Assembly (NCBI GenBank): GCA_944386095.1
Contig: CALWZU010000010.1
Location: 1-43,105, forward strand
DNA length: 43,105 nt
DNA from: an uncultured Clostridia bacterium
GTDB taxonomy: Bacteria > Bacillota > Clostridia > Peptostreptococcales > Anaerovoracaceae
Direction: 5' to 3'
A model generated the notes under the pieces. That model was not told the DNA's origin. It was given only the letters and a program-made list of their open reading frames with translations, and searched no databases. Positions 20,421 to 24,168 of this stretch are shown piece by piece. Every line of letters begins with the position of its first letter. Position 1 is the stretch's first letter. Position numbers and translations under genes: made by a program.

Positions 20421-21056
20421 ATGAAATCCCAGATCCGAAAGAATATGCTGGGGCGGCGAAACAACCTGCCCCTTGAATATATACAAAAAAGCGGGGCAGC
20501 CTTTTATGAAAACCTTCTGAAATCAGGCTGTCTGCCCTCCGTAAATCCCATGCAAAAAAAGCTCCGCCAAACAGAGGCCCTGGGAAAAATCCTTTATCCA
20601 AAACCGCCTCTTGTCATGCTGTATCATTCCTTCCGGAAAGAAGCCTCCACCATGACCATCAAAGACCGGCTCCTTGAAAAAGGCTTTGATCTGTGCCTTC
20701 CCGTTACCTTTTCGGGCGCCGGCTCTCAGCCGGACATGCAGGCCTACCCCATTACCCGCAAAACCCGGTTTGCGCCTGACGCCTTCGGCGTACCCACTCC
20801 CCTCTGCCAGGATGTTTTGCCGGTGGATCCCTCCCAAATCAGCCTGATTATCGTTCCCGGCGTCGCCTTCGATCCCCAGGGCAACCGTCTGGGCTTTGGA
20901 AAAGGCTTTTACGACCGCTTCCTGCCCCGGGCGCCCCAGGCTCTCAAGGTCGCTTTAGCTTATGATTTTCAGCTCATCCATCGCCTCCCCAGAGAGCCCT
21001 GGGATATCAAAATGGATTATATCATCACCGAAAGCCGCATCATCAGCTGCATCTGA
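20421..21056 (+). CDS. 5-formyltetrahydrofolate cyclo-ligase
   Basis: A 211-residue enzyme that converts 5-formyl-THF to methenyl-THF with ATP. The nucleotide and folate motif RLGFGKGFYDRFL is in the C-terminal third, preceded by LIIVPGVAFDPQGNRLG, both diagnostic. The N-terminal KSQIRKNMLGRRNNL matches the family start. AAAAGGAG precedes ATG 20421; a GTG at 20406 lies upstream of that site. The insertion around residues 40-65 makes it slightly longer than usual. Its last 40 bases overlap the end of the convergent gene. Confidence 0.92.
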   Translation: MKSQIRKNMLGRRNNLPLEYIQKSGAAFYENLLKSGCLPSVNPMQKKLRQTEALGKILYPKPPLVMLYHSFRKEASTMTIKDRLLEKGFDLCLPVTFSGAGSQPDMQAYPITRKTRFAPDAFGVPTPLCQDVLPVDPSQISLIIVPGVAFDPQGNRLGFGKGFYDRFLPRAPQALKVALAYDFQLIHRLPREPWDIKMDYIITESRIISCI

Positions 21057-21709
21057 GGCTCCATTTCCATAAAGGGGAAATAAACGGGAAAATACGCCGC
21101 CAGCTCCGACGTTTCTGTCTGCGTTTTCTCTGCCTGGCGGGTTTCTTTTTGGCCTTCTTCCCTTTCCATGCGGGAATCGTTATTTTCCGCCCGGTTTATC
21201 ACCAGCAAAAACGGCTGTTTTTTTTGTTCCAACGCGGCCAGACGGGAAAGATACCGCCTTCTCTGCATTTCCGACCGTTCCCTCCAGCCCTGCTGGTCCG
21301 CCACCACCAAAAGCAGATCCATTTTTTCCTTTCCCGGCTCTTCCCTTCCCAGATCGTAAAGCCTGAGGTTTTCCCACCTGACCTTTCTCAACGTCCAGGA
21401 AAGCCACCCAAACAGAAAGCTGGCTCCGGCTCCTTCCCAAAGCCCTATGATCCCCACCTTTTTTAGTCCATCCCCGTTTCCTTCTCTTCTCCCTTCGGTT
21501 TCGTCAGCATACGGCAGAGGAGATATTTCTTCCTCCTGCCTGCAGGCCTTTTCCTCCAAAGGCGCCTCCCTCTGAAGAGGCTGGGTATCGGCGCTCCATG
21601 CTTCCACCTGGCTGATCAGCTCTTCCGCCAGAAAATAGGCCTGGCGCTGTTTTCCCTCCGCTTCCTGTTCCCACTGAAGACCGGCTTCTTTCTCCTTCGT
21701 CTTTCTCAC
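21017..21709 (-). CDS. Uncharacterised protein with degenerate P-loop
   Basis: A 230-residue protein not recognised as a named family. Residues 1-80 are charged and low in complexity. From about 82 it resembles the start of a ParA/MinD-like ATPase: strand KKVGIIGL, loop WEGAGAS (91-97), a helix, strand LRLYDLG, and strand MDLLLVVADQQ followed by LVINRAEN. The invariant P-loop lysine is absent (GAGAS where GxGKS/T is expected), so ATP binding is doubtful. The last 60 residues are again charged. The start is GTG with a ribosome binding site almost touching it. It has a strong promoter of its own and overlaps the folate gene tail to tail by 40 bases. Confidence 0.65.
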   Translation of the reverse strand: MRKTKEKEAGLQWEQEAEGKQRQAYFLAEELISQVEAWSADTQPLQREAPLEEKACRQEEEISPLPYADETEGRREGNGDGLKKVGIIGLWEGAGASFLFGWLSWTLRKVRWENLRLYDLGREEPGKEKMDLLLVVADQQGWRERSEMQRRRYLSRLAALEQKKQPFLLVINRAENNDSRMEREEGQKETRQAEKTQTETSELAAYFPVYFPFMEMEPQMQLMMRLSVMI

Positions 21710-21789: not shown

Positions 21790-21819
21790 ATTATACCATT
21801 TTGTTCCATTTCATGGCAA
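21790..21819 (-). promoter_or_regulatory. Promoter for the degenerate P-loop gene
   Basis: On the minus strand TTGCCA (21814-21819), an 18-base spacer ending in TGG, and TATAAT (21790-21795): an extended -10 promoter with a near-consensus -35, about 80 bases before the GTG start. Confidence 0.7.
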
Positions 21820-21849
21820 GCAAAAATTCCTTTTTTCCCCACGCAAAAA

Positions 21850-21876
21850 CCCGCGGTTCTTACATATCACCACGGG
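21850..21876 (-). terminator. Terminator after the PhnX-PhnW-like gene
   Basis: CCCGCGGT (21850-21857) pairs with ACCACGGG (21869-21876) with one G-T wobble; TTTTT follows on the minus strand. It lies about 50 bases past the stop and upstream of the next promoter. Confidence 0.8.
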
Positions 21877-21926
21877 CCTTATCTTTTTTCGGGCTCTGTC
21901 AGTTTTGTTTTGTCAATTTCGCTCCG

Positions 21927-23531
21927 TCAATTTCTCTCCGCCATCTCTCCTGCTCTTTGCAGATAATCCTCCATTGCCAGGCAGAAATTCTCTATATCCC
22001 GGCTGTTCAGATTTCCGCAGGTACCGATCCGAAAGGTCGAGATCCGGGTAAGCTTGCCGGGATCGATTACAAATCCCCTGCGTCTGAGAAAATGATACAG
22101 ATTTGCAAAATCCAGCGCTCCCAGTTCGAAGGTCATGGCGATACAGGACTGATCCTCCTCCCTGACGATGGATCGGATTCCAAGGCGTTTCATTCCCCGA
22201 GCCAGTGTCTGTCTGTTTTCCTCATAGCGCTGTCTTCTGGCCGTCATTTCCCCTTCCTTTCTGTATTCGTCGATGGCCTGACGCAAAGCCAGAAGAATAT
22301 TGGTGGGAGAGGTAAAGCGGAATTTCCCGCCGCTTCCGGAAAATTCTCTGTACTGCAAATGCAGATCCATACACAGAGAATGAGCCACATCCTTTGCTTT
22401 TTCCAGTATTTCTTTTTTCGCTACAACAAAGGCTATGCCCGGCGTTCCCTCCAGACATACGTTAGCGCAGGCCGCCACCGCATCCGCGCCCAGCGGTCCG
22501 CCAAGAGGCAGCTCATAAACCCCAAAGCTGGAAATACAATCGATGAGCACCTGCTTTCCCCTGGCCTTGGCCGCCGCAGTGATTTCCCGCGCCGGATTCA
22601 TAACCCCGGAGGAGGTTTCACAGTGGACGAACATCACGGTACGAATCCCGGGATTACGGGCAAGATACCCCTCTACCTGATCGGGATCGATTCCCCTGCA
22701 GGGAGGAAATTCCAGAACCGAAAAGGTTTTCCCCGCTCTTTCCGCCAGGCTGACCATCCGTTTGCCATATTCGCCGTTGACCAGAAACAAAATCCTCTCC
22801 CCATCCCGGCACAGAGATTGAATCATGGATTCTACTCCATAGGTACCGCTTCCCTGCAAAAGCACGGTAGTAAACCCATCATCAGCGTAAATGGCCGTCA
22901 GGTCGTCGATCACGGAGCGGGTAATGCTTCTGTATTCTTCATCCCAGCTGCAATGATCCGCCATCATGGACTGTTTTACCCGTCTTCTGGTCGTAACGGG
23001 TCCAGGTGTTAAAAGGGTATGACCGGCAAGCCGGGCAGCCCGGTAATTGATATCGCTGATTACAGCGGAAAGCTCCCAAATATCCTGTATCACGTAATCC
23101 GCCTGGGCTGTGTGATACTGTTTTCTTGCCTCCATCTCTCTTTCCCGGGGAGAAGAAAACAGCCCCTGGGAAAATCGGGAAATGACGCCAACCGTCCAAA
23201 GCCCCGCCTGAATACCTTCTTTTACCTCTTCTGCGCTGAAAGCCACCTTTACGGCATTGAGGGGCTGAGAGACGCCAAATTCCATGAGATTTTTCCAGAT
23301 CATAAAGGGCTTTGGCCTGCCCTGGCTCACCTCCGCCGCGCAGACAGCATAATCCGGCACATTTCCTTCCTGCTCTGCCAAAGCGAGGATCTGCTTCAGC
23401 TCATCTTCTCCGCATTGAGAAGTAGATCCGATCCGGATCCCGCGTTTTCTGAAAAAATCCAGCAATTCCTTTACATCGGCGTTTTTTCTGCCGGCAATAT
23501 GGGTCCAATCAAATATAATCGCTTCAACCAT
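21927..23531 (-). CDS. PhnX-PhnW-like fusion, both active sites apparently lost
   Basis: A 534-residue fusion. Residues 1 to about 158 match phosphonoacetaldehyde hydrolase (HAD fold): IIFDW with D8, RGIRIGSTSQ (30-39), AEVSQGRPKPFM, VKEGIQAGLWTVGV. The cap domain that should follow motif I, carrying the Schiff-base lysine, is absent, and the GDT metal motif is A97-F98-S99. Residues about 165-534 match 2-aminoethylphosphonate-pyruvate transaminase: LLTPGPVTT, LLQGSGTYGVE, HCETSSG, D331 in IDCISSFG, and R501 in FRIG. The PLP lysine of the usual NKC motif is V358 (codon GTA, in CANVCLEGTPG). No other phosphonate gene is near. The frame is intact with a good ribosome binding site, so it looks like a maintained pseudoenzyme. 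Function unknown. Confidence 0.8.
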   Translation of the reverse strand: MVEAIIFDWTHIAGRKNADVKELLDFFRKRGIRIGSTSQCGEDELKQILALAEQEGNVPDYAVCAAEVSQGRPKPFMIWKNLMEFGVSQPLNAVKVAFSAEEVKEGIQAGLWTVGVISRFSQGLFSSPREREMEARKQYHTAQADYVIQDIWELSAVISDINYRAARLAGHTLLTPGPVTTRRRVKQSMMADHCSWDEEYRSITRSVIDDLTAIYADDGFTTVLLQGSGTYGVESMIQSLCRDGERILFLVNGEYGKRMVSLAERAGKTFSVLEFPPCRGIDPDQVEGYLARNPGIRTVMFVHCETSSGVMNPAREITAAAKARGKQVLIDCISSFGVYELPLGGPLGADAVAACANVCLEGTPGIAFVVAKKEILEKAKDVAHSLCMDLHLQYREFSGSGGKFRFTSPTNILLALRQAIDEYRKEGEMTARRQRYEENRQTLARGMKRLGIRSIVREEDQSCIAMTFELGALDFANLYHFLRRRGFVIDPGKLTRISTFRIGTCGNLNSRDIENFCLAMEDYLQRAGEMAERN

Positions 23532-23666
23532 GTTTCTTCCTTCTTTTCTTTCTTTTTCATTCGTCTATACAGCTTCATCCTAACAGGATCTTTTCCGCTA
23601 TTCTATGACTCTTTCTTCAGATTTTTGTAAAATCTTTGCATATACCCGGTCTCTCAAAAGAAAAGA

Positions 23667-23691
23667 AGGGCCGCTTCTGTCCCGAAGCCCT
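23667..23691 (-). terminator. Probable terminator after the PrcB-like gene
   Basis: AGGGC-CG-CTTC pairs with GAAGCCCT with a small bulge; on the minus strand a T-rich tract (TTCTTTTCTTTTG) follows, 12 bases past the stop. Confidence 0.5.
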
Positions 23692-23703
23692 CATGCTGGT
23701 TTC

Positions 23704-24168
23704 TCAGTCCTCATACCGTACCTTCAGCTCGATTTCATCGGGCAGCTCCTTCAGCTGCGTCAGGGCCACCGCATAAGGGTAGTTCAGCTCCTGATTCAAA
23801 AGTGCGCCGCTTTCCGGATCCCCGAAGATCGCATGGACTGTCATTCTGGTCAGGCCGTCGATCTCCTGCAGGGTAATATCTTCGATCCCAACCGTATAAC
23901 CTGTGGTGGTTTTTTCTCCTCTTGTGGCAATCACATATACCTGTTCCTCTACAATGCAGGCCAATGCCCTTTCCAGCTGCTGATACTGCGGAAGGATCTC
24001 CTCCACAAGAGCCGCCGGCAGCTGCTCCTTCTCCACCTGCGTAAATTCGATGGAACCGTCTCCCCGCAGCTGGCCGCAGCCCCATATGCAGCCCGCCGCC
24101 AGGACGGCAAGCAATAAAATACCGACCACCGCTTTTTTCCCCGGTTTTTTCAACGACAGCTTTTTCAA
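23704..24168 (-). CDS. PrcB-like exported protein, probable lipoprotein
   Basis: A 154-residue protein. A basic N-terminus and hydrophobic segment end in LAVLAAGC, a lipobox-like site with C27, so membrane anchoring outside the cell is likely. The C-terminal half resembles the PrcB domain: RGEKTTTGYTVGIEDI, then MTVHAIFGDP and LNYPYAVALTQL. PrcB-type proteins were first linked to surface proteases; the activity is unknown. Two TTG starts are possible; 24168 has GGAGGG nine bases upstream and is preferred to 24174. The gene precedes the PhnX-PhnW-like gene on the same strand but is separated from it by a probable terminator. Confidence 0.65.
   Translation of the reverse strand: MKKLSLKKPGKKAVVGILLLAVLAAGCIWGCGQLRGDGSIEFTQVEKEQLPAALVEEILPQYQQLERALACIVEEQVYVIATRGEKTTTGYTVGIEDITLQEIDGLTRMTVHAIFGDPESGALLNQELNYPYAVALTQLKELPDEIELKVRYED

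Follow-up and report, generated by a model that had tools for sequence, protein, structure and literature searches.

A PhnX-PhnW fusion protein of an uncultured Clostridia bacterium predicted to have lost both active sites

The analyzed window, a 43,105-nucleotide stretch of one contig of an uncultured Clostridia bacterium, encodes on the reverse strand a protein in which a remnant of the phosphonatase PhnX precedes a homolog of the 2-aminoethylphosphonate (AEP):pyruvate transaminase PhnW (Table 1). The initial annotation of this DNA described an intact frame of 534 codons with a good ribosome binding site and a terminator, and all three were recovered: the open reading frame starts with ATG and contains no internal stops, the ribosome binding site lies directly upstream of the start codon, and the terminator hairpin carries a run of T on its 3' side. 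The AlphaFold2 model of the entire protein is confident (pLDDT 94.4, pTM 0.86). A search for sigma-70-like matches 5' of the fusion gene yielded no promoter, a second upstream hairpin (23645-23710) folds no better than its shuffled versions, and no Rfam elements were found in the window. The gene is flanked by genes for a PrcB_C-domain protein and for a protein matching no known family, and genes for 5-FTHF cyclo-ligase, FtsX and a split transketolase are located nearby. A promoter-like site (21790-21819) separates the fusion gene from a neighboring gene (21017-21709, reverse strand), the 230-residue product of which has no Pfam matches and contains a P-loop-like motif, GLWEGAGAS.

Table 1. 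Features of the fusion gene and its flanks (positions in the window).
Feature	Position	Strand	Basis
Putative PhnX-PhnW fusion pseudoenzyme gene	21927..23531	-	534 aa; NCBIfam, alignment and AlphaFold2 model
Ribosome binding site GAAGGAAG	23536..23543	-	Sequence, just 5' of ATG
HAD (PhnX) remnant, residues 1-167, core Rossmann fold, no cap	23031..23531	-	TIGR01422; alignment; model
Cap-domain loss point, ~85 residues absent	23478..23504	-	Alignment vs fusions
Former HAD motif IV, GDT to AFS, residues 97-99	23235..23243	-	GDT in 24/24 fusions
PLP fold type I (PhnW) half, residues 168-534	21930..23030	-	TIGR03301; Foldseek
GSGT PLP-phosphate motif, residues 227-230, kept	22842..22853	-	Alignment
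HCETSSG motif, residues 303-309, kept except T307S	22605..22625	-	Alignment
D331, pyridine-N aspartate, kept	22539..22541	-	Invariant in alignment
Codon 358, GTA (Val), replacing Schiff-base Lys	22458..22460	-	Lys in 109/109 relatives
Y490 of invariant YPGK motif, replaced by Asp	22062..22064	-	Tyr in 109/109
R501, substrate-binding arginine, kept	22029..22031	-	Invariant in alignment
Intrinsic terminator hairpin, then TTTTT	21846..21878	-	Fold -16.1 kcal/mol, z = -4.8

Residues 173-523 belong to the PhnW-AepZ family of NCBIfam, with a score that passes the equivalog cut-off of TIGR03301 (371.1 vs 360.8 bits) and the cut-off of PRK13479 (368 vs 296) but misses that of TIGR02326 (357 vs 400.8). 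The best Foldseek matches of this half are 7E7G, 9KKA, 9KK8 and 1M32, with rmsd of 1.2-1.3 A and 38% identity. The active site was examined in an alignment of 110 sequences that included the window protein, 24 fusions and 85 stand-alone PhnW. As the initial annotation had pointed out, Val358 takes the place of the PLP lysine, and the GTA codon is indeed two base changes away from any lysine codon; the N-V-C motif that marks this replacement, which the relatives might have shared, is present in none of the 109. The residues and motifs listed there as retained (D331, R501, GSGTY and HCETSSG) were all found, together with N357, Y255, R405 and T407, and the distance from the aspartate to the lysine position, given as about 26, is 27 residues (D331 to V358) because of a one-residue insertion that precedes GAD.

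The description of the pocket as conserved holds only in part. An AEP-transaminase pocket without its lysine is recognizable, but, besides V358, approximately a dozen near-invariant PhnW residues are altered, including Y490D, A332C (Ala in 106 of the 109 relatives) and M333I, S355C and I505C, where the replaced residue is found in each of the relatives. Relocation of the active-site lysine was considered and rejected given that no lysine is new in the active-site motifs and each PLP-half column with a lysine in the window protein contains Lys in some of the relatives. Separately, we observed that the three new cysteines (A332C, S355C and I505C) fall in motifs that surround the former active site and are close to the conserved C359.

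Judging from its sequence, the phosphonatase half is dead alongside the transaminase half, which was overlooked in the initial annotation. Residues 18-158 score below the cut-off of the phosphonatase family TIGR01422 (100.7 vs 220 bits), with the match covering model positions 101-251 only. After IFDW, the window protein reads IFDW-THIAGRKNADVKELL, whereas the fusions L003, L004 and L005, with which it was aligned, continue with IFDWAGTTIDYG, about 85 residues and VKPGV. In PhnX, the cap holds the catalytic lysine (Lys53 in B. cereus numbering), which is lost with it. The excision appears clean because all six core Rossmann strands remain in the model (E4-7, E33-38, E61-64, E93-97, E112-116 and E146-148). 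In addition, residues of HAD motifs II and IV are lost: the metal-site motif GDTxxD is replaced by AFSxxE (AFSAEE), and STTGYT of the intact fusions by STSQCG. Truncation of the cap and loss of the phosphonatase catalytic residues, the features by which the PA2803/PcrP type is defined (PMC12632274), are both present in this half, and its score against NF053741 (24.6 vs a cut-off of 240 bits) does not place it in that subfamily.

The search for relatives covered 350 family genomes and about 400 genomes each of the same order and class; a further 80 loci were identified in a collection of 84,980 species using the alignment as the query, whereas the window protein alone yielded no matches in genome contigs. 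No close relative was found in its own genus, which comprises one genome. A comparable fusion is encoded in just 3 other genomes of the 350 in the family, representing three genera, all of them intact, and the intact fusions of this family and other Clostridia carry every catalytic residue. No other copy with both halves dead was detected in the family, order and class genomes or in viral contigs. The window protein departs from 28 of the 137 columns that are invariant among the fusions, compared with 0-5% for the other fusions in leave-one-out comparisons of the 24. It groups beside L003 and L032 in the tree, at the end of a long terminal branch (1.61 changes per column vs a median of 0.28 for the whole protein, and 1.05 vs 0.25 for the PLP half).

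The clostridial fusions (L003, L004, L005, L032-L041 and L045) have the same domain order as the window protein, 45-52% identity to it and the shared PLP-half motifs NGEYGKRM, KFRFTSPTN and CLEG; unlike the window copy, they keep the PhnX cap, GDT..D, STTG (STSG in L032) and the PhnW lysine. An intermediate condition is seen in a fusion from another family of the same class, L140 (L140:1423-3069; G882:C64:79139-80692), in which the PhnX cap is cut out as in the window copy, such that the phosphonatase is presumably dead, but GDTT is retained, as is the entire transaminase site with its lysine. By eye, no phosphonate transporter was recognized in the neighborhood of this gene (L142). Given that the boundaries of the deletion differ and that L140 belongs to a different, well supported clade (98/99), its cap loss appears independent, which, on the alignment and tree, makes at least two such losses among the fusions. 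Apart from these, the fusions L116-L123, from one genus of the same order, group with stand-alone PhnW of Bacillaceae and a Brevibacillus fusion (L042) rather than with the main clostridial fusions; this placement suggests more than one origin of the PhnX-PhnW fusion.

The intact clostridial fusions are mostly encoded in operons with phosphonate or AEP ABC transporters of the PhnD/PhnC/PhnE or PhnS type, whereas the window copy lies outside any phosphonate operon. Some of the operons with intact fusions also include a gene for an iron alcohol dehydrogenase-like protein, which directly precedes the fusion in three loci (L039:6756-7733, L034:2619-3653 and L144:6870-7847), has PsrA as its nearest NCBIfam family, below the cut-off, and possibly reduces a pathway aldehyde. 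The source genome is a draft of 128 contigs and 94% completeness; in this assembly, neither another PhnX nor PEP mutase nor a PhnD-type binding protein was detected above the cut-offs, and PhnJ was not found. There is no second PhnW in the genome either, the other match being a class V stretch with 21% identity (E 9.5e-5).

Whether the gene evolves under selection was assessed by simulations on one sequence with assumed mutation spectra, none of which is strong alone: neutral drift requires about 170 substitutions to reach the observed count of broken invariants, and the same drift predicts 3.9-5.5 stops on average, with a probability of 0.0045-0.025 for the zero observed. This simulation includes substitutions alone; by alignment, all indels relative to the fusions are in frame. 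At the changed clade-invariant sites of the PLP half, the replacements are conservative (mean BLOSUM62 0.28 vs -0.58 under neutrality, P 0.006-0.007), and the codon usage of this half is ordinary, with 24 of 90 neighbor windows scoring as low. The HAD half shows no conservative bias at its changed invariant sites (P 0.16-0.17), its codon usage scores lower than all 243 neighbor windows, its invariant columns are changed as often as the variable ones (0.37 vs 0.31-0.59), and a greater fraction of its invariant sites is changed than in the PLP half (14/41 vs 14/96, Fisher P 0.019). We read the PLP half as probably still selected for its fold and the HAD half, indistinguishable from neutral on both tests, as a probable near-neutral remnant. 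The GC3 of the whole gene (0.56) is under that of all comparable windows; relaxed selection or acquisition of the gene by transfer could explain this.

The explanation that we favor, and consider just about probable, is that an AEP-degrading PhnX-PhnW fusion gave rise to this protein as a bifunctional pseudoenzyme, with the PLP-fold half selected for a non-catalytic function and the HAD half a relic. The ancestral type joins phosphonatase and AEP transaminase, and its gene is mostly found next to those of an ABC transporter for phosphonate or AEP; the window copy lies outside such an operon and has lost the PhnX cap, the metal-site motif and the Schiff-base lysine of PhnW. The chemistry of both enzymes is known (PMC10574752), and for this reason the window protein should run neither reaction: AEP transamination and phosphonoacetaldehyde hydrolysis appear impossible by the known mechanisms. 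Purifying selection would maintain the PLP-fold half as a folded protein, and the HAD half would be carried along. Because the residues that contact the PLP phosphate, the pyridine nitrogen and the substrate (its arginine) remain, PLP or an AEP-PLP adduct might still be held non-covalently, and the role could be ligand binding or, by analogy with PcrP, protein-protein contact. Such a role is plausible given that the K193M mutant of Vibrio vulnificus PhnW, as far as entry 9KKA describes it, was crystallized with PLP and AEP and that PcrP of Pseudomonas aeruginosa has no phosphonatase activity and binds two protein partners (PMC12632274). This explanation is supported by the stop-free frame with in-frame indels, the conservative changes and ordinary codons of the PLP half, the confident PhnW-fold model with the ribosome binding site and terminator, and the absence of the lysine here alone (1 vs 109) together with the broken invariants; the neutral-looking HAD half, the lowest GC3 and the failure to find a promoter upstream count against it, as does the occurrence of the dead form in one species, from which conservation cannot be shown.

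The initial annotation had suggested binding or sensing of a PLP- or phosphonate-like ligand. Loss of the lysine from a recognizable pocket, the signs of selection on the PLP half and the precedent of 9KKA, within what that entry describes, are consistent with binding, whereas the altered pocket residues, the dead, near-neutral HAD half, the lack of pathway and transporter and the possibility of decay weigh against it, and ligand sensing is allowed but unsupported. A more specific version, in which the pocket without lysine was kept to bind PLP or the PLP-AEP adduct, either as a signal or for storage, and a catabolic fusion thereby became a protein that responds to B6 or phosphonate and has no DNA-binding domain, appears unlikely.

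The main rival explanation is a slowly decaying gene, in which the transporter and the pathway were lost and both halves drift with no stop fixed so far. We regard it as a real possibility, short of probable, because the phosphonate pathway and transporter are absent above the cut-offs and the genome lacks a further PhnW, the terminal branches exceed the medians several-fold, the HAD half combines a near-uniform excess of changes with eroded codon usage in a gene of the lowest GC3, and the dead form is confined to one species; the lack of stops and frameshifts over 534 codons, the conservative replacements and ordinary codons in the PLP half and the heavier damage to the HAD half at invariant sites argue against it. 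Some fold type I enzymes lack the lysine, such as ColD, which uses a histidine, and D331, GSGT, N357, T407 and R501 are kept; nevertheless, an active enzyme, with new lysine-independent chemistry or another lysine as a substitute, seems distinctly improbable when a valine replaces the base, no lysine is new in the active-site motifs, the YPGK tyrosine and S355 are lost as well and the genomic context suggests no substrate. The lysine-independent reaction proposed in the initial annotation accordingly finds no support, N-V-C being shared by none of the relatives.

Two further explanations are, in our view, highly unlikely. A dead subunit could pair with an active paralog in the same cell, for which SPTLC1 is a precedent, and the active sites of PhnW are shared between subunits. 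PhnW is a homodimer (PMC10574752), but a heterodimer is hardly to be expected because the 94% complete assembly holds no paralog. A sequencing or assembly artifact, conceivable in a draft of 128 contigs, would have to explain changes in 28 of the 137 invariant columns, the clean removal of the cap and indels that stay in frame, together in a single open frame, as well as a valine codon two base changes from lysine.

The fusion is a natural example of a two-domain catabolic enzyme in which, as far as can be predicted, both active sites were lost while the frame stayed open, and it can be compared with intact sisters and the half-dead L140. Should a new role indeed account for the retention of the PLP half, the protein would join the rare class V PLP proteins without the lysine, and the fusion family would allow the transition from enzyme to pseudoenzyme to be followed step by step, from intact fusions through a dead PhnX to two dead halves. 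For annotation, it is a warning that a protein without the catalytic lysine passes the PhnW equivalog cut-off.

Among the known systems, the HAD half resembles the PcrP/PA2803 subfamily and PSPTO_2114 (2ODA) of Pseudomonas, which are phosphonatase-derived HAD proteins in which the cap is truncated and catalytic residues have been lost; for PcrP, a role in protein binding rather than catalysis has been demonstrated (PMC12632274). Unlike the window fusion, these proteins are stand-alone and have no PLP domain. The PLP half has the fold and most of the cofactor residues in common with PhnW (1M32, 7E7G, 9KK8 and 9KKA) but differs in the missing Schiff-base lysine and in Y490D, S355C, M333I and I505C. 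The MocR/GabR regulators employ an aminotransferase fold for sensing rather than catalysis; however, they carry a GntR DNA-binding domain (PMC5320631), which the window protein does not have.
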